44,894 nt of DNA from Candidatus Heimdallarchaeota archaeon (GCA_023132955.1 JAGLXK010000488.1:1-44894), one strand, 5' to 3'. Positions 19,652-44,894 are shown, numbered from the stretch's first letter. Numbers and translations: made by a program. The notes: a model not told the origin generated them from the letters alone.

Positions 19652-19781
19652 GGGGCACTAGCTCAGCTCGGTTAGAAGTCAAATGGCTGCGTGCCATTAA
19701 CTAAAAGGCGACTGGCTCATAATTTTGGGCCAAAACTGAGAGACCAGTTGGTCGGTGGTTCAAATCCGCCGTGCCCCACCA
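19652..19781 (+). tRNA. tRNA with anticodon CAT (elongator Met or Ile2), two introns
   Basis: Exon 1 is 19652-19676, exon 2 is 19708-19721 and exon 3 is 19743-19781. After removal of the introns the tRNA has acceptor GGGGCAC/GTGCCCC, D-stem GCTC/GAGC, anticodon arm ACTGG-CTCATAA-CCAGT and T-arm GGTGG-TTCAAAT-CCGCC, with CCA encoded. Intron 19722-19742 (21 nt) sits at the canonical position 37/38 and folds as a bulge-helix-bulge (CTCA/TGAG helix with 3-nt bulges TAA and AGA). Intron 19677-19707 (31 nt) splits the 3' strand of the D-stem. It has a hairpin AATGGC/GCCATT and a TTAG/CTAA helix. The 3' part of this gene is repeated at 22879-22933. Confidence 0.9.
19727..19781 (+). repeat. Left copy of 55-bp direct repeat (tRNA 3' part), putative att site
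   Basis: This segment, from inside the anticodon-loop intron to the CCA end, matches 22879-22933 at 51 of 55 positions in the same orientation. It is the copy that belongs to the complete tRNA. Confidence 0.85.
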
Positions 19782-19787
19782 ACTTCT

Positions 19788-22748
19788 TTAAACACACACT
19801 TTTTCCATCCAATCTACTGAATTTTTCCACGAATAACTTGTTTTTGAATCTAAATTATCTTTACCTTTGCTAAAAACAAGTGGTGCTATCCCCGACTCTA
19901 AAATCTTCAAAATCTTAAGAAATAAAGGATTGTAGTTACAAAACAAAGTTAACTCTGCCTTAATATCACGTATGCTCTCTTTACTAGAATTCTTAAACCT
20001 TATATTGGCAAATGCTGGTAGCACCTCTATCTTTCTGTCAAAAACTTTGCCAGAGTTTTTATTCACTATATAGTGGATTAACCATTTTTGACCTTCAATT
20101 TTTTTTATAGACTTGAATGTTATATTCCATCCAGATTTTATGAAATAGCTATTTAAAATCATATCCTCTGTTAATAGGAAGAGATTCTTCTTCAGATAAT
20201 CCAACAGTGAATTACTAAATTCTTTCCAAACCTCATTATATTCAAAGAACAAGTAGATGAATAATTTCATCATGATTTCTCTGTTTTCACCTCTTAATAG
20301 GTTAAAAGAAATAGCAGGTTTGGAATACAATGTCTCAATTGCATCGTTAATTTCATCAACATGGCTTAACATCTCTCTTATTCTTTCTATATACATCTCT
20401 CTTGCCTTCACCCCTTTTTTTCCCGCACGTATTCCATCGACTCTGCAGAATCTAAATTTCAATTCAGAATGCCTTGTTGACGATTTTCCTGACTTTATTG
20501 CTATAGGGAATGTAGATAGAACATTTCGATCTAAGAATCTATTTATGCTAAAAATCTCATTGAAGTCAATCTTGATATTTAAATATGGATTTTCCATTGA
20601 AGAAAGATTTTTATCATCGCCAAATGTTCTTACTGGATTACTTTTCTCATCCAGAAATATTAGCGACCTAACTAAATCTCCTTGTTCAAACAGGTTCTTA
20701 CGAAGTTTTAACCTTGTGTTCCCTTTTAGCAAATACAAAATGCTGAATATAAGGGAGTGTTCAGGATCAGTCTTTACTTTTTGTTCGAAATCTTCTTCCG
20801 AAAAATCTTTAGAAGTCATTTCTTTAAGGAAATCTAATACTTCTTTATCATTATAAGAAAATAGTTTTTTGAACGCTAGTTCCTTGGTTTCACTTAATTT
20901 TATAGGATTGTTTCGACTTATTTCCTTTAGTTTGCCATAAAGAGGTAGTTTCCAAACGTAATTCGTTGTATATGGAATTGCTGAATACATCTTTTGGTTT
21001 TTCTCAAGCCATAGTTTAACATTTGAAATATCTTCTGAAGCAATTTCACTACATACAAACGTTTTACCATCTTTGAGCATCTCAAATGATGTAAAGTTTT
21101 TGCTATCTATAAGATACTGATAGATTTCGTGAAGGATCTTATTATATGCAAACAGGAGAGATTCAATGTATTTAGGAGAAGCTACAGTCTCTTCAATTTT
21201 ACAATTTCTACTTATTGAGATAGACTTGAAAATAGAGTTCAGTTGATAGTATAATTCTGAATTAAAAACTGAATGAGTTTTTTGTATTTTCTTAAGTAAT
21301 TTCTGTGAATACCCTTCAATTGATACAATATAATCTCCTTTTTCATTTTTTATAGGTTTGAAAGAAAATATTTCACCAATAATACAAAGGGGTTGTTCTT
21401 TTCTATTTATGATATCTAGATGATTGATTACTTTCGATTCGTCACTTAGTGTATAACCATTCTGCATCAAGGCTATCAAACGATGGTTGTCTTTTGCAGA
21501 TTTAATTAATTTCCTTGTCAATTGTTTTGCATTCGGAATCTTATTTCTCTCCAAACCAAAAATTAGGTCATGTTGATATTTCGTTGATTTCATTTTTTGC
21601 AGAAAATTGTTACCCTGTGCATCATAGTAATAGGTATATCGTTTAAACAAAGAATTAGAAAAGTCAATGCTTTGAAGTACTGTAAACCCTATTTTCTGAA
21701 GAATATCTTGAAACTTATTGTTAGTACGTTTTTGAGCTAGATTAAAAACTGATTTATGTAGAGGATCACCTATATTTTTGAAGTTTTTACATATAGAATA
21801 ACTGCCACCACATTTTTGTTCTGAAAACCATAATTCGAATTTATTGCGATTAAGTAAAGTAAAATAAGAATCAAAACCTAAAGATACGCTGGATTTGAAC
21901 CTAGAGAAATCCGAATGAACAATTACTTTTTGACTATCCTTTGAAATGTGTTGTTTTCCTCTAAACTCATCTCGATCATGATTTATTTTTATCCAAACAT
22001 TCTGGAAGAACTCATGCATAGATCCATAATCAAAACCTAACACTTTCTTATCAAAATCAGACATGCAAGCCAAGTAGATGGTAAATATTCTAGCTTCTTC
22101 ATGAGTTAAATCATGCTTCTTCCTAATATTTTCAGTTATATCCGAACCATGTTTGTTGAAAAATTCCCTTGTAATTTTTCGTTTATGATCTTCATCATAT
22201 CCTTTTCCAAAAAGAACATTTCTTGTATAAGAATCATAGATTTCCTTAGAAAATTTCAAACTTTCTTTGAACAAATACTCCCCAAAAAGAATTCCTTTTT
22301 TGTTTTCAATTATTGGTCTCAGATTTTTTATGTGTTCCTTCCAACTCTTTAGGCTACTGTTATCATTTATAATATCACTAATTGACCTCATTTTAGGAAA
22401 GAACAATGAATTTACAAGCTTCACAAAGGATTTGTCATTATCTGGTAAAGTGTTGTATTTGCTTTCTGTTAAGTTTTCTAAAGCTCCCCAGGAGAGGTTA
22501 TCATCAAATTCAATACAGACAATTTGTATTTCATTTGAGTTGATAGTTTCAAGGCCTGAATTCTCTTCTGTTCCTTCGACTAATTTTGCTTTATTGTGTT
22601 TCTGGAGCTTTTCTATATTCTTTTTTGTTTTTTTGATAAATTGGAGAACTTCTTGTACTTCTCTTTTCATTTCTTCGATTTCTTTTATTCTGGTATGTTT
22701 ATCCGCAGTATTCTGTGTATTTACCTTGAGATTAATTTCAATCACCAC
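19788..22748 (-). CDS. Orphan 986-residue protein carried by the tRNA-linked element
   Basis: I do not recognise this protein. It starts at a GTG, with a GAGGAAA stretch some 15 bases upstream and a TATA-like sequence near 22826-22834. Residues about 20-60 are a charged helix likely to coil (EIEEMKREVQEVLQFIKKTK). The rest is a soluble mixture of helices and strands rich in K, N, S and F, with no signal peptide, membrane helix, zinc motif or P-loop. Segments with clustered conserved-looking residues are VIVHSDFSRFKSSVS near residue 275 and RHSELKFRFCRVDGIRAGKK near 756. Codon use is more AT-rich than the flanking genes. It ends 7 bp from the tRNA CCA, so it fills the element almost completely. 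Confidence 0.7.
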   Translation of the reverse strand: MVIEINLKVNTQNTADKHTRIKEIEEMKREVQEVLQFIKKTKKNIEKLQKHNKAKLVEGTEENSGLETINSNEIQIVCIEFDDNLSWGALENLTESKYNTLPDNDKSFVKLVNSLFFPKMRSISDIINDNSSLKSWKEHIKNLRPIIENKKGILFGEYLFKESLKFSKEIYDSYTRNVLFGKGYDEDHKRKITREFFNKHGSDITENIRKKHDLTHEEARIFTIYLACMSDFDKKVLGFDYGSMHEFFQNVWIKINHDRDEFRGKQHISKDSQKVIVHSDFSRFKSSVSLGFDSYFTLLNRNKFELWFSEQKCGGSYSICKNFKNIGDPLHKSVFNLAQKRTNNKFQDILQKIGFTVLQSIDFSNSLFKRYTYYYDAQGNNFLQKMKSTKYQHDLIFGLERNKIPNAKQLTRKLIKSAKDNHRLIALMQNGYTLSDESKVINHLDIINRKEQPLCIIGEIFSFKPIKNEKGDYIVSIEGYSQKLLKKIQKTHSVFNSELYYQLNSIFKSISISRNCKIEETVASPKYIESLLFAYNKILHEIYQYLIDSKNFTSFEMLKDGKTFVCSEIASEDISNVKLWLEKNQKMYSAIPYTTNYVWKLPLYGKLKEISRNNPIKLSETKELAFKKLFSYNDKEVLDFLKEMTSKDFSEEDFEQKVKTDPEHSLIFSILYLLKGNTRLKLRKNLFEQGDLVRSLIFLDEKSNPVRTFGDDKNLSSMENPYLNIKIDFNEIFSINRFLDRNVLSTFPIAIKSGKSSTRHSELKFRFCRVDGIRAGKKGVKAREMYIERIREMLSHVDEINDAIETLYSKPAISFNLLRGENREIMMKLFIYLFFEYNEVWKEFSNSLLDYLKKNLFLLTEDMILNSYFIKSGWNITFKSIKKIEGQKWLIHYIVNKNSGKVFDRKIEVLPAFANIRFKNSSKESIRDIKAELTLFCNYNPLFLKILKILESGIAPLVFSKGKDNLDSKTSYSWKNSVDWMEKVCV

Positions 22749-22878
22749 GAAGAAACTTGATTTCCTCTAAGTTGTAAAAATGAAAAGTTTCAGATTCATT
22801 TAACATTAAATGATTAAAATGATATAAAAACGTGGTAAAAATTAAACTATTTTGTAATTAAGCTTGTAGAGTTATTAT

Positions 22879-22933
22879 GAGCCAAAACTGAGAAACCAGA
22901 TGGTCGGTGGTTCGAATCCGCCGTGCCCCACCA
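22879..22933 (+). repeat. Right copy of 55-bp direct repeat: detached tRNA 3' part
   Basis: It contains the 3' part of the tRNA intron, the 3' anticodon strand (CCAGA instead of CCAGT), the variable loop, the T-arm (TTCGAAT loop), the acceptor 3' strand GTGCCCC and ACCA. No 5' half lies upstream, so it cannot make a tRNA by itself. It marks the distal end of the element. Confidence 0.85.
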
Positions 22934-22993
22934 TTTTTGTCAAATACTAAAGGTTAAAACTCTTTTTTGTAAAAATAGCTATTAAGTGATTTT

Positions 22994-24569: not shown

Positions 24570-24615
24570 ATATGAAAGATAAATATAAAGAATTACTAGT
24601 TGCTCGTTATTATGT
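24570..24615 (+). repeat. Left copy of a 46-bp perfect direct repeat (RuBisCO 5' end)
   Basis: Identical to 29422-29467 at all 46 positions. It begins two bases before the ATG and ends within codon 15. No similarity is seen upstream of the repeat. Confidence 0.9.
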
Positions 24616-24658
24616 GGAACATGTAAAAAGTGTTGATGTAGCCGCAGAGGAGAACTGA
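24570..24658 (+). pseudogene. Truncated 5' copy of the RuBisCO large-subunit gene
   Basis: The ATG at 24572 opens a 28-codon frame, MKDKYKELLVARYYVEHVKS followed by eight residues and TGA. The first 20 residues equal those of the intact RuBisCO at 29424, and the next eight (VDVAAEEN against VEQAGEDI) are still alignable. Bases 24570-24615 are identical to 29422-29467; beyond that, third positions and then whole codons differ sharply. It is a leftover or element-borne 5' fragment. Confidence 0.85.
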
Positions 24659-24677
24659 AAAAACTACTTCAATGATA

Positions 24678-25898
24678 CTATCTAAATGACACTTTATAAT
24701 ATTTCCTAATTTCTTCTTCTGTAGCTATAGTTATAGCTGGATAAACTCTTGCTTTTAATTTCTTAGCCTTTTCAATAATTTGTTGTCCCTGATTCTTATC
24801 TTTACTTTGTAAAAATTCCTTACCAATAATACTGAGAATATACCAATCTGTAAAATTCTCATTCTGCAAAATCTTTTCATAGTATTTAATTCTTTTTTCT
24901 GTATCTTCTTCTGTAACTTTTTCTATCTCAAACCATCTACCATAATGATAGAGAGCATAAGGATTGTTGGGTTCTAGAGAAACAGCTTTTTCAAGACATT
25001 TTGTCCCTTCTTTATGTTTACATTTTCTGAAAAGAGCATGACCTAGTTTTATTGTTTCCTCTACACGATTAGGAAAACTATGAAAGTTTTCACATGCTTC
25101 ATCAAAAGCAATTCTAACCTCTTCAATAGAACCAATTATTTCTTTCATTCGCAAATTTATTGTCCATAAAAAGAGGTTGTCGAAGACCGTATAGCGAGGA
25201 TCATGGTGAATGTAAGGAAGATAGTATTCTTCTTTGTCATAATAAACTCTATGAAGATCCGTTCCATCTGATAGTAAGAAATATAGTATTTTCCCCAAAG
25301 AGTAAATATCCAACTTACAGGAAACTTCATCAAGCCTACCAAGTTCTGTATCTGGATGCGAATAGATTTTTGAGCCTACCCTTTCATTGGTAGTAGTAAA
25401 ACGTGCAGTTTCATCCTTAATAAAAACTATTCCAAAATCTGCAATTTTGGGGATTCCTTCTTTCATGAGGGTATTTGTTGGTTTAAGGTCTCTATGAATT
25501 ATCGGTGAATTATTATTATGTAGTGATTCTACACCATCCAATATTTGATGAAAGAGATTAATTTTTTCATCAAAAGATAGCTTGTTTTGACTTAGATATT
25601 TTGATAGATTTGTATCAGCTTTTTCCATAACAAAATAATAAATCTCGTCCGTACATTTTCCCTTATCTACATATTGAATAAAATTTTTATGAGGTTTTAA
25701 ATCTAAAAGATATTCTTCCTTTTCAAATCTTTTTTTTACTTTTTCTTTATCTTTTCTTCTTTTATACTTTCTCAAATCAACTATTTTGATCGCATACTCT
25801 TTATCATCTAAAACTTTTCTTGCAGAATAAACTACTCCTTGTCCTCCACTACCAAGATAGTCCTCGTTGCTATATTCCCACCCTTTACAATTATACAT
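24678..25898 (-). CDS. Hanks-type serine/threonine protein kinase with C-terminal TPR region
   Basis: The 406-residue protein has a complete kinase core. The glycine loop GSGGQGVVY is at residues 16-24, lysine 38 lies in AIKIVD, the catalytic loop HRDLKPTN is near residue 135, and DFG is near 154. Then GSKIYSHPD and LDIYSLGKILYFLL form the activation segment and helix F. Residues about 270-400 form TPR-like helices (LGHALFRKCKHKEGTKCLEKA, NNPYALYHYGRWFEIEK). No membrane helix is present, so it is cytoplasmic. Kinases of this eukaryote-like type are scattered in archaea and frequently mobile. It lies inside the RuBisCO island. Confidence 0.9.
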   Translation of the reverse strand: MYNCKGWEYSNEDYLGSGGQGVVYSARKVLDDKEYAIKIVDLRKYKRRKDKEKVKKRFEKEEYLLDLKPHKNFIQYVDKGKCTDEIYYFVMEKADTNLSKYLSQNKLSFDEKINLFHQILDGVESLHNNNSPIIHRDLKPTNTLMKEGIPKIADFGIVFIKDETARFTTTNERVGSKIYSHPDTELGRLDEVSCKLDIYSLGKILYFLLSDGTDLHRVYYDKEEYYLPYIHHDPRYTVFDNLFLWTINLRMKEIIGSIEEVRIAFDEACENFHSFPNRVEETIKLGHALFRKCKHKEGTKCLEKAVSLEPNNPYALYHYGRWFEIEKVTEEDTEKRIKYYEKILQNENFTDWYILSIIGKEFLQSKDKNQGQQIIEKAKKLKARVYPAITIATEEEIRKYYKVSFR

Positions 25899-26165
25899 AT
25901 AATGAACGAATAGTATATTATTAAAAATTATACTATTATTTCAAAACTTGCTTGATATCTAACTATCAGCATTATACATTTGTGATTTGACCAAACCACT
26001 AAAACTTAGAGGAAAAAGGAAGAAATGAATAGATTATTACAATGTAATTGAGAATTTGAAGAGTTATTAAAGGTAAGATGATAACTTGATGTTTTTGATT
26101 TTTTTGCAAAGCCATCGTTACACAATTAGAAGATTAAGCACACACGGAATAAAAGTTTACTATTA
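25899..26165. other. Non-coding stretch between kinase and subtilase remnant
   Basis: These 267 AT-rich bases separate divergent genes. A TATA-like ATAATATACT near 25912-25922 could serve the kinase on the minus strand. No ORF, tRNA or repeat is seen; the missing 5' part of the subtilase gene is not recognisable here. Confidence 0.4.
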
Positions 26166-26693
26166 GTGATACTATGCATTCCGAAACAACAGAACTGTGA
26201 CATTGCACAATTCAATCTTTCTGAAATAGAAGTGATAGTTCAAATAACAGAGACATATATTGGTGAACCTATTATTACACGGATATTTGTATCAATATCA
26301 TACCTTGTTTCTAAAAAGACCTTTGCTAGGAATTCTATTTCTTGTTCTACTAATTGCTTGCTCGTTGAGATATATTGGCTTGCACCCGGAAATGGAGTAC
26401 CTGTTTTAACACAACCTTATAGAGATATTATCCTTGGCGTTTACAGAGGAACTTGGGTATATATGGCAGGAACTAGCATTAGTACACCCTACTTAGCGGG
26501 TATAATTGCATTAATTATAACTGGATACCATAATGGGTTAGGTTCTTATACAGATCCTACTGTGCAAAAGGTAATAGATATCCTTCAATATGCAAGTTCA
26601 AGAAGTACTTTTGACCAAGAAATGGGATATGGATACGTTGATGCTTACTTAGCTTATGGGAGAGCATATACGGAGGGGAGATTAGCAACCTAA
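26166..26693 (+). pseudogene. Remnant of a subtilisin-like (S8) serine protease gene
   Basis: Only the last third looks like a subtilase: LAPGNGVPVL, then GTSISTPYLAGIIALI, which holds the active-site serine, and a final YGYVDAYLAYGRA segment like the end of S8 domains. The aspartate and histidine of the triad are absent. The first 60 residues read poorly and contain a cysteine cluster not typical of the family, and no convincing start codon or ribosome binding site precedes them. The gene is therefore 5'-truncated, with a possible frameshift before residue 75. Confidence 0.75.
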
Positions 26694-26768
26694 ATGGTTT
26701 TATGTGTTATTGTACTAGTATAATTAAAAATCAGTTGTTAGAATTAGAGAGTAAGGAGGAAGGATAAT

Positions 26769-27446
26769 ATGAATAAAAAAATAGGTAAATTCTTGACTAT
26801 ATCGCTAATAGTGCTTACACTTTTACTCCCATATACGATGGTAGTAGAAGGGGAAGAATCAACTATTGCTTCTAGAATCTCAGAAATTTCTGAAGTTTCT
26901 GTACTTCACAATTCATATTTTAGTGAACCCAATACCACTTTGTTTGATATAAATGTAACAGTAGAAATTTTAAATAAAGAAGCTGAAAATCAAACAGTCA
27001 CTGAAATATCTGATTATATTCCAAAGGTTTTCATTAATGCATCACTTGAGAACCAATCATTGGAATTTGAACGATTAGGATATGTACACTCAACAGTTAT
27101 GAAATATACTTATCAACCGGGCATTACAGTTGAATATAGTTATGTTGTGTTCTATATTAATCAAACGGATTTAGATCAACTTCCAAATGGCAATTACACC
27201 CTTTGGAGACCAATCAATACTGCTTATCAGTGGTTAAATACTACTAAAGCAGAAGTTTTAATGACTATAATCACTGTGACTTCTGGTGTGTTGAACATAA
27301 CTTATATGGATTTTGATTATAATCCTACTGAAGTAACGAGTACCTCATTCATGACCCCAATAGTATTCTTTTTGTTATTTTCATTAATGGTTGCAAGTAA
27401 CATAAGGAGAAAATCACTGTATAATCAAAAAGAAGTATCTAAGTAA
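26769..27446 (+). CDS. Secreted or surface protein with signal peptide and C-terminal membrane anchor
   Basis: I do not recognise the 225-residue product. It has an N-terminal signal sequence (KIGKFLTISLIVLTLLLPYT), an outer domain of about 170 residues with several N-glycosylation sequons (NTT, NVT, NQT), and a C-terminal helix (SFMTPIVFFLLFSLMVASNI) followed by a basic tail. It is thus a type I single-pass protein. An AAGGAGGAAGGA ribosome binding site precedes the ATG. It follows the subtilase remnant by 75 bp; a protease/surface-protein partnership before the protease decayed is possible. Confidence 0.7.
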   Translation: MNKKIGKFLTISLIVLTLLLPYTMVVEGEESTIASRISEISEVSVLHNSYFSEPNTTLFDINVTVEILNKEAENQTVTEISDYIPKVFINASLENQSLEFERLGYVHSTVMKYTYQPGITVEYSYVVFYINQTDLDQLPNGNYTLWRPINTAYQWLNTTKAEVLMTIITVTSGVLNITYMDFDYNPTEVTSTSFMTPIVFFLLFSLMVASNIRRKSLYNQKEVSK

Positions 27447-27547
27447 AATATCCAGAATACTAAATATCCAAAACTACGAAATACAAAGTAGATGACGATA
27501 TTTTCTCTTCTAATACTTTTTCAAATAAAGACAAAAAACTGTTATTT

Positions 27548-29293
27548 TTGGGATGTGACTACAGTCATCTAGATAGAAATCTAGAGTTGTTTATTGGAAA
27601 CTCAGAAATCTTAAATAAAGCAGGATTGTTTGAGCAATCAGAATACGAGAAATACAGAGACAGGTATAACTCTAATGTTAATTTAAAGACTTCTGGATTA
27701 GTTTTGTATACCTCAATACAATTTATTTACTTTATTAAAGTATATTATTCTAAAGCAACGCAAGAAGAGATAATACCCTGTGTTCTACCATTGTCCTACA
27801 ATTATAGGGACAGAAGAACAAAAATATACATAGAGATTCAGCACAATCTAAATTCAGAAGACAACAAGTATGATTTGTGTAATTTGGTAGAATTTCTTAG
27901 TACTCAAAAAACAAATAATAAAATTATTAATTCCTTTTCTGGAGCAAATGCTCTAGGAATTTATGATGAGAAAAAGGATATTTTTGTTGATCTTCAGGAT
28001 TTATTAGCATACCAGAATAAGGAATTATACGATAGTATTAAAATTGATGCAATAAACTCCGTAATTGAGTTAAATAAGCACAAGAAAGTATCAAATAATG
28101 TATCAAAAGGAGTTATTAATCCGTTAAAAAGCACTAAAATCTTAGCTCCATATTTACCTGTATCTATTCGTTTTGATGAGCAAGAGCATTATAATTACAT
28201 TACATTATCCAAGTACAATCTTGATGGAATGTTTAGAACGTTAACAAATTCCTTGAATAAGAAAGAAACTTCATCATATATTCTTGATGATAATTTTGAT
28301 GTAAGATTAATAGAAATTCTAGGAGCAAGCAGAAAACAATTAGCTACAAATAAAGGAGTTAAGCAACTATTTCTTCGTAATCCTGAACTGAAGGAAGTAC
28401 TAGTACTAATGAACGCACGATTAAATGGGAAGAAATACGATGATTCTTCTTCGGAGGTTAACAATTTTGCTAATGTAAAATATATTCATAGCTTGATTAA
28501 TGAATATTTTAATAATTATGAAGGAAAGAGAGACAAACGCACTAGACTTTATAATTTGAACAATTACGGAGGAGTTAGTATTGATGATCAAATTATTACT
28601 TTGTTATCTTTATTCGCATTCAAATTATATGATTGTATAACAAATTATGGTCGTTATACTCATTCCTTTGAACATTTAAAATCTGAAAAAGATACCTCAA
28701 GAGACGATCCTTGGATATATAGAATTTCCATTAATTTTCAAAGTATAGCTAGACAAGAATGGAACAAATTCATAACTTGGTACCTTAATCATGATGTTTT
28801 TCTTGAAAGTGAGTTGCATATAAACACCATATCGAATTATTTGGATTATAATAAAATAAATAAAAAGACCAATCCTTCTGTTTTCGGTATTCTTACTAGT
28901 TTCCAGCACATCTTTTTTAGCAAGGAATCTATGCCTTTGGTAAATCAAAACAAAGAACTATCAATAGAGCAAAAGGTTTCTAAAATGCAATATGACTACA
29001 TATGGGCTGAAGTAGAAAAATACAATATATCTCTTTTCAATAAATTTAATCTTGTAAAATTTGCATTCTATGACACAGTCATTAGAGTGCGGTGTTCATT
29101 AATGAATATTGGTACTAAGAAACGTAAATACTACTTCCAATCAATTGATAATTCTGTAAGAAAAGTCCTTAGCTCACTTACAGAAAATGATAATTCAATA
29201 AATGATGAAAACGCAAACTGTATAATAGACCTTGAAAAAGCAAGATTGCTTAGTTATATGACTAATACTCAATTAATACAAAGACAATATTAA
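27548..29293 (+). CDS. Orphan 581-residue protein of the RuBisCO island
   Basis: I do not recognise it. It is a soluble protein rich in N, K, Y and I, with no signal peptide, zinc motif or nucleotide-binding loop. Recognisable segments are LKTSGLVLYTSIQFIYFIKVYY near residue 50 and IDDQIITLLSLFAFKLYDC near 350. The only start offered is a TTG at 27548, but the same frame stays open with coding-like sequence back to 27464 and has no ATG, GTG or TTG there. The gene may be 5'-truncated or begin at a non-standard codon. Codon use is strongly AT-biased (many ATA, AAT, TTA), unlike the neighbouring metabolic genes. Confidence 0.6.
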   Translation: MGCDYSHLDRNLELFIGNSEILNKAGLFEQSEYEKYRDRYNSNVNLKTSGLVLYTSIQFIYFIKVYYSKATQEEIIPCVLPLSYNYRDRRTKIYIEIQHNLNSEDNKYDLCNLVEFLSTQKTNNKIINSFSGANALGIYDEKKDIFVDLQDLLAYQNKELYDSIKIDAINSVIELNKHKKVSNNVSKGVINPLKSTKILAPYLPVSIRFDEQEHYNYITLSKYNLDGMFRTLTNSLNKKETSSYILDDNFDVRLIEILGASRKQLATNKGVKQLFLRNPELKEVLVLMNARLNGKKYDDSSSEVNNFANVKYIHSLINEYFNNYEGKRDKRTRLYNLNNYGGVSIDDQIITLLSLFAFKLYDCITNYGRYTHSFEHLKSEKDTSRDDPWIYRISINFQSIARQEWNKFITWYLNHDVFLESELHINTISNYLDYNKINKKTNPSVFGILTSFQHIFFSKESMPLVNQNKELSIEQKVSKMQYDYIWAEVEKYNISLFNKFNLVKFAFYDTVIRVRCSLMNIGTKKRKYYFQSIDNSVRKVLSSLTENDNSINDENANCIIDLEKARLLSYMTNTQLIQRQY

Positions 29294-29394
29294 TAATAGT
29301 GTTTTGTTTAGCTTTCCATTCCTTTTTCTTTATTAAACCTTTAAACCAGATATTACTTTCATTTTATTATTCGAAAACTAGACAAATCATATTG

Positions 29395-29402
29395 TTTAAA
29401 AT
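29395..29402 (+). promoter_or_regulatory. TATA-like box of the RuBisCO gene, inside the island
   Basis: TTTAAAAT is centred about 25 bp before the ATG at 29424. It lies in island sequence, so the island probably carries the gene's own promoter. Confidence 0.4.
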
Positions 29403-29421
29403 GGTACAGAATGAGTGTTTT

Positions 29422-29467
29422 ATATGAAAGATAAATATAAAGAATTACTAGTTGCTCGTTATTATGT
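29422..29467 (+). repeat. Right copy of the 46-bp perfect direct repeat (RuBisCO 5' end)
   Basis: It covers the first 14 codons of the intact RuBisCO gene plus two bases on each side. It equals 24570-24615. Confidence 0.9.
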
Positions 29468-30680
29468 AGAGCACGTAAAGTCCGTGGAACAAGCTGGGGA
29501 GGATATCGCGGACGAAGAAAGCGTTGGTACATGGACCAAACTTACTACAATTGAAAACACAGAGATAGACATTATTCCTAGATTAAGAGCTGAGATTCTG
29601 GATACCAAGGTTATTGGTGACCACGAAGGATATCAGAGTGGAGAAGTATTAATTGGATTTAAGACAGAAACTTTTGATACAGAAGCAGGAATTACAAGTA
29701 TTTTGTCCATGTTAGCTGGTAACCTATTTGGTTTAGGAGCACTTCGCAATATACGATGGGTTGATGTAGAATTTCCCAGAAGTATTGCAGAAAACTTTCC
29801 AGGACCAAAATTTGGAGTACAAGGAGTACGTAAAATCTTAGGTACTGACAAAGGTGAATTTCCAAATCGTCCTCATTTAGGAACAATTGTTAAACCAAAA
29901 ATGGGATTAACAGCAAAAGAATGGGCTCAAGTAGCTTATGAAGCGGCTATCGGTGGTGTAGATTTTATCAAAGATGATGAAAATCTAAGTAGCCAACCTT
30001 TCTGTCCAATAGCAGATAGAACCGTTGCAGTATTAGAAAAGATGGATCAAGTGAAAGAAGAAACAGGAAGAACTGTAATCCATGCAGTGAATGTAACCGC
30101 AAAACATGATGTCATGTGGAGAAGGATAGAGGAAGCTATCGATAATGGGGCTAAATGTTTGATGATAGATGTTATTCTTACTGGATTTCAAGAATTAGCT
30201 CAAATGGCAGCTGATCCAAGTGTAAAGGTACCAATTCATGTTCATAGAACTATGCATGCAGCTTTCACTCGTAATAAGAAACATGGTATTTCCATGTTAC
30301 CAATTGCTAAAATAGTCCGAATGGTCGGTGGTGATCAATTGCATATAGGCTCGTATGGCCAAGGCAAAATGGACACAGAATTAGATCTTGAACTTCAAAT
30401 TAAAGATGCTATGCTTAACCCAATGTATGAATTTAAACCAACTTTTCCAGTTGCATCAGGGGGATTGTATCCTGCGAAAGTACCTAACTTAGTGAAACAT
30501 GGTGGTGATAATATCATAATTCAGGCAGGAGGAGGAATTCATGGACATCCTGATGGTACAAGAAAGGGAGCAATGGCAATGAGACAAGCTCTAGATGCTA
30601 CACTCAAGGGCATTTCCTTGGAAGAATATGCAAAAGAGCATGTAGAACTCGCCAAAGCACTTGAAAAATGGGGCAACTAA
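29424..30680 (+). CDS. rbcL: Ribulose-1,5-bisphosphate carboxylase, form III (archaeal)
   Basis: From the ATG at 29424 the protein has 418 residues, normal for form III. Catalytic motifs are intact: GTIVKPKMGL (both active-site lysines), GGVDFIKDDENL with the carbamylated lysine 183 and metal ligands D185 and E186, HRTMHAAFTR, the loop-6 lysine in GQGKMD, and ASGGLYPAKVP. It fixes CO2 on ribulose bisphosphate made by the upstream isomerase during AMP salvage. A GTG at 29415 is in frame, but the duplicated 5' fragment has no matching codons upstream of the ATG, which supports 29424. The gene is followed by a T-rich terminator-like tract. Confidence 0.95.
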   Translation: MKDKYKELLVARYYVEHVKSVEQAGEDIADEESVGTWTKLTTIENTEIDIIPRLRAEILDTKVIGDHEGYQSGEVLIGFKTETFDTEAGITSILSMLAGNLFGLGALRNIRWVDVEFPRSIAENFPGPKFGVQGVRKILGTDKGEFPNRPHLGTIVKPKMGLTAKEWAQVAYEAAIGGVDFIKDDENLSSQPFCPIADRTVAVLEKMDQVKEETGRTVIHAVNVTAKHDVMWRRIEEAIDNGAKCLMIDVILTGFQELAQMAADPSVKVPIHVHRTMHAAFTRNKKHGISMLPIAKIVRMVGGDQLHIGSYGQGKMDTELDLELQIKDAMLNPMYEFKPTFPVASGGLYPAKVPNLVKHGGDNIIIQAGGGIHGHPDGTRKGAMAMRQALDATLKGISLEEYAKEHVELAKALEKWGN

Positions 30681-42999: not shown

Positions 43000-44894
43000 A
43001 TGTCCTCTCAAGCAAAACAAACATTAGTCACTCGCACTTATCAAATGGGTGTCAGGTTTGAAGGTACTAGAGAGGAACGTAGGAAAGACGAAAAAGAAGC
43101 TAACCAACGAATAAAAGGTTTGCAAGTTCAACAAGAAGATATTATCCGCGACAAGAAAGCTATCAACGCAGCAATGGTTTTGGCAAGAACAGATCCAAAT
43201 TTGAATGCAAAGATGGGTGCTTCCTCTATTTCTAAAATTACCAGGAATTCTAGAAACATCACTCAAAGTGCTTATTATTGGCTCTTTGTTGCAGCTAAAG
43301 GAACGGTTGATAGAGAGAAGAAAGTCGAGGATTTCTTTAATCAACTTTTACAACGACCTGAACAAGCTGTTGAATGGATAATCTTTGGTCGAAGTCCAAG
43401 AATGGAAAAGTATCTCTACAAGAAGTGGGAAGTTAGCAGACTTTATGTCATCAATCTGATAAACAGAACAAGAAGACAGATAGACAAATATTGCCCTAAT
43501 TCATTGAAATTCAACACTAAACTCCCCCTATTAACACAAAAAGAAATAGAAAGAGCTATTATCCGCTATTACAAGAAACTATGCGAAGAACTAACTTCTA
43601 CTCAACAAGGTAGATCTTTGAAAGATTTTCTAGAGAATACAAGACTATTAACAGCAAATGTTACAGCTGTTGCCCCAATGCTCACCTCATGGAATAATGT
43701 TGAACATCCTTCTCGTTGGAAAAGTATGAAAGAACTAAACAGAAGAATCGCAGAAGTGGTGGGAAAACCAAGTAGAATGTTTTTCTCAGCTTTGAGGACT
43801 ATAGTAGTCTTCGCACTCTTTCCGCAAATAGGAGAGACTGTCAAAAAAATACTTGAGAAAACACATCCAGAAAAAGTTGTCAATCCACCATATAGAAGAA
43901 AGAAGAAAGGAAGAGCACCAATTATATTGTTAATGAACGAAAGATTTGTTGTCATGAGACCAGGAAATTCTGAACACATGACATTTCTTGCAAGAGCTGA
44001 TGGAGAATTTGAAATAGGATTCTTGTTGAAAAATCATCCAAGGATAACGGCAAAACTTGTCTTTTCAAAAAAAGTGAGAGGGTATTTGCTTAATGGAGCA
44101 AGAATAAGAGTCCTCTATATCCGCTATAGTTCAGCACCAAGTTACAAAGTAAGAGTATCTGTTGTTCTAGAAGGACCGCAAGAAATTTTCATCGGTACAA
44201 AACTTACAAGAGAATTTGCTAAGAAAATCAAAGTTCCTAAATCAGAATATATGGGAGTAGATGTCAACCGCATAGGAAAACAAATGGTAGCACTTTCAAA
44301 TGATGTTAAACTACCAAAAGAACTTCTGACTTTAACAGAACGATATTATAAACTATCAAAGACGAAGATACCAGAATTAAGCTATAGTTTAACAAATAAA
44401 GGAAAGAAGAAAGACTCCTATAGTTACGTTAAAACGAAAGGAGAGCTTTCAAGAGTTACTCAGCGAAAATTCCGAATTCTAAAAGAAATAAAGAGCATTC
44501 TACCACATTTCCTAGCAGCTGTTATGGTAAAGGCAAAGTGTAAAGTGCTTTTCCAAGAAGATCTAGAAATAGATCCAAGAGGAAAAAAAGGAGCACTAGC
44601 AAAAGCAATCAGAACAATGCCAAAAGGAGCATACATATTCGAAAAAGCTGTATTAATTGCTTCAAGTATTTTAGGATACGAAATAAAACTAATGAGAGTT
44701 GATTCGAGGGGAACAAGCAGATATCATAATGGATGCAGAGGAACATTAGAAAGATCGCTAAAGAGATACGATAGAGCTAGATGTAGAAAGTGCGGAAATA
44801 TTGTAGATACTCATGTGAATTCCGCAAAGAATGTTAGAGATATTGGAATAAAGTTATTGCAATTACAAGATCACTCCTCTCCGCATGTGAGGAG
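43000..44894 (+). CDS. TnpB/Cas12-like RuvC nuclease, 3' end beyond the window
   Basis: The frame from the ATG at 43000 is open for 631 codons to the window edge. The C-terminal half has a split RuvC fold: D421 in MGVDVNRIGKQMVALS (RuvC-I), E520 in VLFQEDLEI (RuvC-II) and D603 in IVDTHVNSAKNV (RuvC-III). Between the last two is a zinc ribbon with HNGC and CRKC in place of the usual two C-x2-C pairs. Residues 1-400 are helical and basic, and longer than in TnpB (about 400 residues in total), closer to compact Cas12 size. No tnpA or CRISPR array is in view. RNA-guided DNA cutting is inferred from the family. Confidence 0.82.
   Translation, partial: MSSQAKQTLVTRTYQMGVRFEGTREERRKDEKEANQRIKGLQVQQEDIIRDKKAINAAMVLARTDPNLNAKMGASSISKITRNSRNITQSAYYWLFVAAKGTVDREKKVEDFFNQLLQRPEQAVEWIIFGRSPRMEKYLYKKWEVSRLYVINLINRTRRQIDKYCPNSLKFNTKLPLLTQKEIERAIIRYYKKLCEELTSTQQGRSLKDFLENTRLLTANVTAVAPMLTSWNNVEHPSRWKSMKELNRRIAEVVGKPSRMFFSALRTIVVFALFPQIGETVKKILEKTHPEKVVNPPYRRKKKGRAPIILLMNERFVVMRPGNSEHMTFLARADGEFEIGFLLKNHPRITAKLVFSKKVRGYLLNGARIRVLYIRYSSAPSYKVRVSVVLEGPQEIFIGTKLTREFAKKIKVPKSEYMGVDVNRIGKQMVALSNDVKLPKELLTLTERYYKLSKTKIPELSYSLTNKGKKKDSYSYVKTKGELSRVTQRKFRILKEIKSILPHFLAAVMVKAKCKVLFQEDLEIDPRGKKGALAKAIRTMPKGAYIFEKAVLIASSILGYEIKLMRVDSRGTSRYHNGCRGTLERSLKRYDRARCRKCGNIVDTHVNSAKNVRDIGIKLLQLQDHSSPHVR
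44874..44894. repeat. Hairpin at the window edge inside the TnpB-like gene end
   Basis: CTCCTC at 44874-44879 pairs with GAGGAG at 44889-44894 around TCCGCATGT. It lies within the open frame, near where IS200/IS605 elements keep a subterminal hairpin overlapping the tnpB 3' end. Confidence 0.4.

Follow-up and report, generated by a model that had tools for sequence, protein, structure and literature searches.

The 44,894-nt stretch of Candidatus Heimdallarchaeota DNA analyzed here (the window; contig C432 of a 3.58-Mb archaeal MAG) carries an insertion whose position within a conserved gene is fixed; the end of this gene has been replaced by an element-borne version while the old end has been displaced. 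We lean toward the interpretation that this is a one-gene integrative element and that the insertion is directed by its protein, which probably belongs to a new family of nucleases or recombinases. The mobility of the element is well supported, although no excised circle has been observed and sequencing reads were not searched for one. The role of the protein itself as the mobilizer is inferred, without a catalytic test, because its gene is the only one common to such elements, sits against the end of the target, and tracks the target. All of the genomes are MAGs, and contig breaks and misbinning affect single cases.

The target in the window is an intact tRNA-Met(CAT) gene (positions 19652 to 19781, plus strand, including the CCA), which forms the left end of the element in reconstituted form. 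ARAGORN called it as tRNA-Met(cat) when introns were allowed and missed it when they were not. Removal of two introns, one of 31 nt in the D arm (19677 to 19707, plus strand) and one of 21 nt in the anticodon loop (19723 to 19743, plus strand), yields a canonical 78-nt tRNA-Met that folds correctly. The anticodon-loop intron and the 3' exon (19722 to 19781, plus strand), which have the element-type alleles CCAGTTGG and TTCAAATCC, make up the left copy of a direct repeat. Its right copy, at the other end of the element, is a displaced tRNA 3' fragment (22874 to 22933, plus strand) with alleles CCAGATGG and TTCGAATCC, the same as those in the full tRNA of G020. In a repeat search, this was the sole long direct repeat between 18.5 and 24 kb (19722 to 19795 and 22874 to 22947; 85% over 74 nt), and when trimmed it comprises 60 nt, with 55 of 60 positions identical (91.7%; E = 4e-15). 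The two copies were also the only strong matches to this tRNA in a search of the whole genome of the window. Short tRNA-end matches in G003, G006, G013, G014, and G017 were rejected as detached fragments and belong to functional tRNA-Val genes.

The first-pass annotation of the window had described a 55-bp repeat of the tRNA 3' part that begins in the intron of the tRNA and had proposed that the attachment site includes intron sequence. The repeat is real and does start in the anticodon intron, but it is ~60 nt long (22874 to 22933), and the gene has two introns, not one. The proposed attachment site holds for the matching block only, and the exact crossover point within the tRNA gene could not be placed, since some tens of nucleotides separate the left breakpoint from the right one: the left switch lies in the D-arm intron, as seen in the divergence profiles of two genome pairs, whereas the start of the right copies is either in the anticodon intron or at the beginning of the 3' exon. 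The suggestion that the right copy might be part of a second functional tRNA fails, as that copy has no 5' half.

The space between the repeat copies is nearly filled, as had been noted before, by a single gene of 986 codons (19788 to 22748, minus strand, GTG start), and no other gene was found. Its stop codon lies 6 nt from the CCA of tRNA-Met, and a TATA-like sequence (22821 to 22830, minus strand), identified in an alignment of the right ends and conserved in G008, G011, and G019, is located ~45 nt inside the right repeat copy and is inferred to be its promoter. The initial statement that no integrase could be recognized was upheld: no tyrosine or serine integrase was found inside the element with Pfam, NCBIfam, and PADLOC, and the 986-residue protein had no significant match in these databases or in PDB sequences. 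Its single weak PHROG match (E = 5e-4) is to a family of unknown function. The element also lacks a Y1 transposase or TnpB gene of the kind found in IS200/IS605 or TnpB elements. Two scans of viral contigs, with protein and alignment queries, gave no relative of the protein, and one scan of genome contigs gave relatives only in Heimdallarchaeota MAGs.

The neighborhood of the tRNA shows conserved synteny: an acyl-CoA synthetase-like gene, lipB, lipA, an FTR1-like permease gene, the tRNA, a flavodoxin gene, an eIF2B-like gene, and a RuBisCO gene. In seven congeners (G001, G003, G004, G007, G010, G013, and G015), the site is empty and the flavodoxin or eIF2B-like gene directly follows tRNA-Met; empty sites were what the original proposal of an element in an intron-containing tRNA gene had called for. 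The site is occupied in the window, G008, G011, G012, G019, and G047 and decayed in G014 and G020; in all of these, the family gene or its remnant is directly 3' of the same tRNA-Met. The close homologues are always convergent with the tRNA and 5 to 7 nt from its CCA, so the expectation that homologues would lie beside tRNA genes in other species was also borne out. Fragments of the tRNA are present on the far side in G008, G011, G019, and G047 and are followed by the same flank as in the empty sites. Related species thus have the site either empty or occupied, and the intact tRNA and the displaced fragment in the same direction, together with the empty sites in relatives, satisfy two parts of the Islander criterion; the third, a recognizable tyrosine or serine integrase inside the element, is lacking. 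As for single cases, the G008 copy of the gene is divided between the ends of two contigs, which share an identical 138-base overlap, and the element of G047 has one extra gene, encoding a TcmP/radical-SAM fusion. G047 is classified in another family, its contig resembles the genus of the window, and it may be misbinned.

The decayed sites are more complex. In G020 (contig C26; L056 9647 to 13117), the flavodoxin gene is preceded, in order, by a 5' tRNA fragment, a complete tRNA, what remains of the family gene, TnpB-like ORFs, and a short remnant of the tRNA end. In G014 (contig C378; L055 10882 to 11288), tRNA-Met and the element remnant lie in reverse orientation with respect to their neighbors, lipA and the eIF2B-like gene. 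A TnpB/Cas12f-like protein related to the TnpB-like ORFs of the G020 site is encoded at the contig end of the window (43000 to 44893).

The element and its flanks have different histories. Between the sister genomes G011 and G012, dS is 0.03 in the FTR1 gene and 0.06 in lipA but 0.91 in the element at the shared site, so the element turns over independently of its host. Between the window and G011, dS is 0.69 in the element and 0.06 to 0.23 in the majority of the flanking genes, with lipA (0.63) as an exception. The dN of the element gene (0.14 to 0.16) is approximately one-seventh to one-fifth of its dS, so the protein is under purifying selection. The divergence between G011 and G012 starts inside the D-arm intron of the tRNA, the FTR1 side being nearly identical. 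The window and G008 differ upstream but show no differences between the anticodon stem and a point at least 370 nt into the element, which points to a recent exchange of the element plus the 3' part of the tRNA. In the right fragments of the window, G008, and G011, 42 nt of the 3' exon are identical and have the alleles CCAGATGG and TTCGAATCC, whereas the left tRNAs of these three genomes have CCAGTTGG and TTCAAATCC. The intact G020 tRNA also carries CCAGATGG and TTCGAATCC. These represent the ancestral tRNA allele, kept in the right copies of three genomes. The allele pattern fits an incoming element that would have brought a new tRNA end and displaced the old one. The element is exchanged between species independently of its flanks, and the 3' part of the tRNA travels with it. 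It has to be asked whether the gene could instead be an ordinary, vertically inherited neighbor of tRNA-Met and the right copy an unrelated tRNA pseudogene derived from a local duplication. The close homologues are indeed all beside the same tRNA; however, sister genomes have empty versus occupied sites, the dS of the element is many times that of the flanks, remnants mark the far end precisely in four of the genomes, and equivalent remnants occur at four more targets. We consider this model hardly credible, as it is already contradicted by the disagreement between the flank and element histories.

The second target is the fumarase beta-subunit gene. A subfamily of 909 residues is encoded between the two fumarase subunit genes in G000 (contig C483), G001, G002, G004, G008, G009, and G011, and a displaced 3' piece of the beta-subunit gene lies beyond the 909-residue gene wherever the far side is assembled. 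The site is empty in G005, G007, G010, G012, and G013 and in C371, a second contig of the genome of the window itself. Where the site is occupied, the full beta gene ends in ~120 nt of element-type sequence that is 60 to 69% identical to the displaced copy in the same genome, whereas the displaced copies and the empty sites share a common host-type sequence. The 5' part of the beta gene follows the host (97% identity between G011 and G008; 95% between G011 and G012). Both junctions fall at Pro-Glu-(Ser/Cys)-Leu-Trp codons in six genomes, and at six loci, the element consists of one gene with nothing else inside. As judged from these sequence comparisons, the element demonstrably supplied a foreign 3' end that was joined at one fixed point.

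Alternatively, a circular DNA that happened to carry a gene fragment could integrate by a single homologous crossover of the Campbell type in the shared gene, without a dedicated enzyme, and the repeats of ~40 to ~880 nt, with copies that have diverged by up to 30 to 40% as if a foreign fragment had been carried in, are compatible with this. However, six genomes have one and the same short stretch as the fumarase switch point, the extreme 3' end of a gene is the site in five cases, the same family is present each time, and the tRNA match of 40 to 60 nt is short for homologous recombination. We regard such an enzyme-free origin as improbable.

In addition to tRNA-Met and the fumarase beta gene, members of the family are found at tRNA-Gln, tRNA-Arg, 16S rRNA, formate-THF ligase, and Ras-like GTPase genes, and a displaced copy of the target end is present on the far side at five of the seven targets. 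The repeat is 882 nt long at the formate-THF ligase gene (G011 and also G016), where the end of the family gene adjoins that of the ligase gene; 418 nt around a 9.4-kb element with cargo at the Ras-like GTPase gene (G012); and 103 nt (97% identity) at the 3' end of 16S rRNA with its spacer (G018 and also G015 and G004). At tRNA-Gln (G007 and G018) and tRNA-Arg(TCT) (G022), the stop codon is 6 to 7 nt and 0 nt, respectively, from the tRNA end, and no displaced copy was seen in the assembled sequence. For pyruvate phosphate dikinase (G001) and ribosomal protein S12 (G002), there is adjacency only. Homologues in a fixed, non-tRNA context had been named in advance as grounds for refuting the element, and the fumarase, formate-THF ligase, and Ras-like GTPase loci partly meet that description; because the anatomy of duplicated gene ends is identical there, these copies extend the interpretation instead. 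Distant homologues in such contexts were accordingly dropped as evidence against mobility once displaced gene ends had been found at them. A tRNA-Gln(TTG) gene (L087 8944 to 9053) has an apparent T-loop intron and was not called by ARAGORN.

The family gene is the only one common to the elements at all of these targets (seven or more), and its 3' end is usually within 0 to 25 nt of the end of the target. As a control, 108 other long ORFs in the same regions were examined for a direct repeat between their 4-kb flanks, and seven had one, three of them being inside the same elements and two representing one further insertion in the window. The protein clade predicts the target: for the six targets that have at least two members, the family tree requires five changes, which is the minimum, compared with a mean of 12.7 and a lowest value of 9 in 2,000 label shuffles. 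The host genomes are scattered on this tree, while the clades match the targets one to one; G011 alone has three members at three targets, each of which clusters with members from other species that share its target. Such a pattern would also result from vertical descent at fixed loci, but the mixture of empty and occupied sites and the contrast in dS argue that descent does not explain everything.

The chief rival is a passenger model in which the ~900-residue protein is cargo, for example, a defense or conflict nuclease, and the integrase acts in trans, being encoded elsewhere or lost. Other inserts of the same anatomy do without the family, many integrases are found in Heimdallarchaeal genomes (PMC8813620), and the family also forms the C-terminal domain of large proteins that have extracellular and membrane segments, a layout that would suit receptors or secreted effectors. 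The inserts with duplicated gene ends but no family gene (24570 to 29503 in the window and one at fumarase in G003) also make a shared trans-acting system possible. Against this model, no other gene is shared by the elements at the seven or more targets, the 3' end of the family gene is mostly 0 to 25 nt from the target end, its clades track the targets, and it is alone inside the elements at six fumarase loci. We consider the passenger model unlikely on balance.

Family profiles were built in steps and searched in 227 Asgard genomes, 17 of which had relatives, nearly all of them of the genus of the window and one being the related complete genome G022. In these profile searches, the family (~900 residues) was found only in Heimdallarchaeia. 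All intact members covering the region have GFD followed, after 12 to 17 residues, by [E/D]-x-K, and mostly a Glu in the helix preceding GFD. In the window protein, these are E246, D293, E310, and K312, and the GFD...EQK motif, identified in family alignments, occupies codons 291 to 312 (21813 to 21878, minus strand). The criterion for PD-(D/E)xK enzymes, D-x(n)-(E/D)-x-K on a beta hairpin and often an upstream helix Glu, is fulfilled: almost all members that span the region have the D and [E/D]xK, and a hairpin is predicted; the G022 fragment has N in place of the motif E. Two AlphaFold models, one full-length and one of a domain, were poor (mean pLDDT, 44 and 54), and the second shows only the motif-bearing hairpin. 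The putative nuclease fold therefore rests on the motif alone, and a restriction endonuclease-like fold is not established. A tyrosine recombinase was rejected, since no conserved R...HxxR...Y was seen in the family alignment when read by eye, and we found no sequence likeness of the family to any known recombinase or DNA-integrating enzyme. In some cases, the family member is the C-terminal domain of a giant ORF (2979+ and 1428 to 1873 aa), and the large family proteins contain extracellular and membrane segments. The family domain ends the ORF of 2979+ aa beside tRNA-Gln and is also present as a fragmented gene beside tRNA-Arg(TCT) in G022.

We infer that the protein could recognize a short site in one conserved gene, cut it by means of its PD-(D/E)xK-like center (E246, D293, E310, and K312), and then join or recruit a copy of the element, circular or from a donor, that carries a diverged downstream gene end. 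The target would remain functional, and once altered, it may no longer be cut. The protein might act either as a recombinase or as a homing-type nuclease relying on host repair. In its broadest form, which we put forward only tentatively and with somewhat less than even confidence, the proposal is that the ~900-residue family is an undescribed class of site-specific integration enzymes with a PD-(D/E)xK-like center, distinct from the tyrosine, serine, and DDE classes; that it is a one-gene mover, each clade being dedicated to one conserved gene end; and that, as the terminal domain of giant aloposon-like proteins, it is their missing integrase.

Elements that use tyrosine or serine integrases are known to integrate at gene ends and to restore the gene. 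Archaeal tRNA islands have SSV-type or pNOB8-type tyrosine integrases, intron-containing tRNA genes are known targets, and the candidate integrase is the gene that lies closest to the reconstituted tRNA (PMC8371274; PMC4383910). The element described here resembles these islands in having a regenerated tRNA at one end and a displaced 3' fragment at the other but differs in that it has no tyrosine recombinase and its family lacks the signature of one. Homing endonucleases are likewise one-gene selfish units with a nuclease-like center, and coconversion of the flanks would look similar; in this case, however, the target is kept whole by a carried-in end and not by an intron or intein, and cutting has not been shown. 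Prophage e14 moves by a conventional integrase. Like the present element, it provides its target, a protein-coding gene, with a 3' end that differs slightly from the old one, but it is a larger prophage of a bacterial host. Its insertion in icd leaves the old gene end (163 bp) displaced (PMC6379469). A 1.8-kb insertion at the multi-intron tRNA-Thr gene of Ca. Caldiarchaeum (Sugahara et al., PMC3293823) is similarly small and archaeal, and intron sequence was exchanged between element and host; it differs in that the 5' rather than the 3' fragment is displaced and no single-gene family was identified.

The aloposons of Ca. Heimdallarchaeum consist of tandem genes for proteins of 3,000 to 6,000 aa plus four upstream genes; at their sites, a tRNA lies downstream of the characteristic long genes, and one is located between 16S rRNA and tRNA-Arg(TCT) (PMC8813620). 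That description does not mention direct repeats, attachment sites, or a nuclease (PMC8813620). Aloposons and the present element occur in the same archaeal group, both have a tRNA downstream of a long gene (at 6 nt here), some family members end giant ORFs, and 16S rRNA and tRNA-Arg(TCT) are both also targets of the 986-aa family. In contrast, the window has a single 986-codon gene and no tandem giant genes, and the four conserved upstream genes, including that for a MinD/ParA-like ATPase, are absent between the tRNA copies. We do not classify the window element as an aloposon; by analogy, it may work like a stripped-down relative (Otus/Ephialtes were not compared).

If the interpretation is true, a single long gene of unknown fold would represent new DNA-joining or DNA-cutting machinery and a candidate mobilizer for the aloposons of Heimdallarchaeia, which are relatives of the eukaryotic lineage. 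Because the clade predicts the target, the family would also offer ready-made pairs of a protein and a short target site. In the tRNA-Met case, tRNA introns are exchanged together with a mobile element, a route of intron transfer that has been proposed but rarely documented.

Two inserts without the family gene were also observed. In G003 (contig C76; L175 4971 to 9987), the fumarase alpha-subunit gene is duplicated as a 1,006-nt repeat (88%) around two ORFs, one of which has a prenyltransferase-like toroid domain. The second insertion of the window (24570 to 29503) is bounded by an 82-nt direct repeat (24570 to 24651 and 29422 to 29503; 83%) that corresponds to the 5' end of the RuBisCO large-chain gene (29415 to 30680), and it is absent from G011. 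Inside it are a kinase-TPR gene, a fragment resembling a subtilase gene, and two further ORFs, one of 225 aa and the other a 581-aa orphan (27548 to 29293). A relative of the orphan forms the C-terminal part of a 1,448-aa ORF just upstream of RuBisCO in G002 (contig C296), and a weak relative occurs in a 3,625-aa ORF in G021 (contig C114); the orphan could possibly represent a second family with the same habit.
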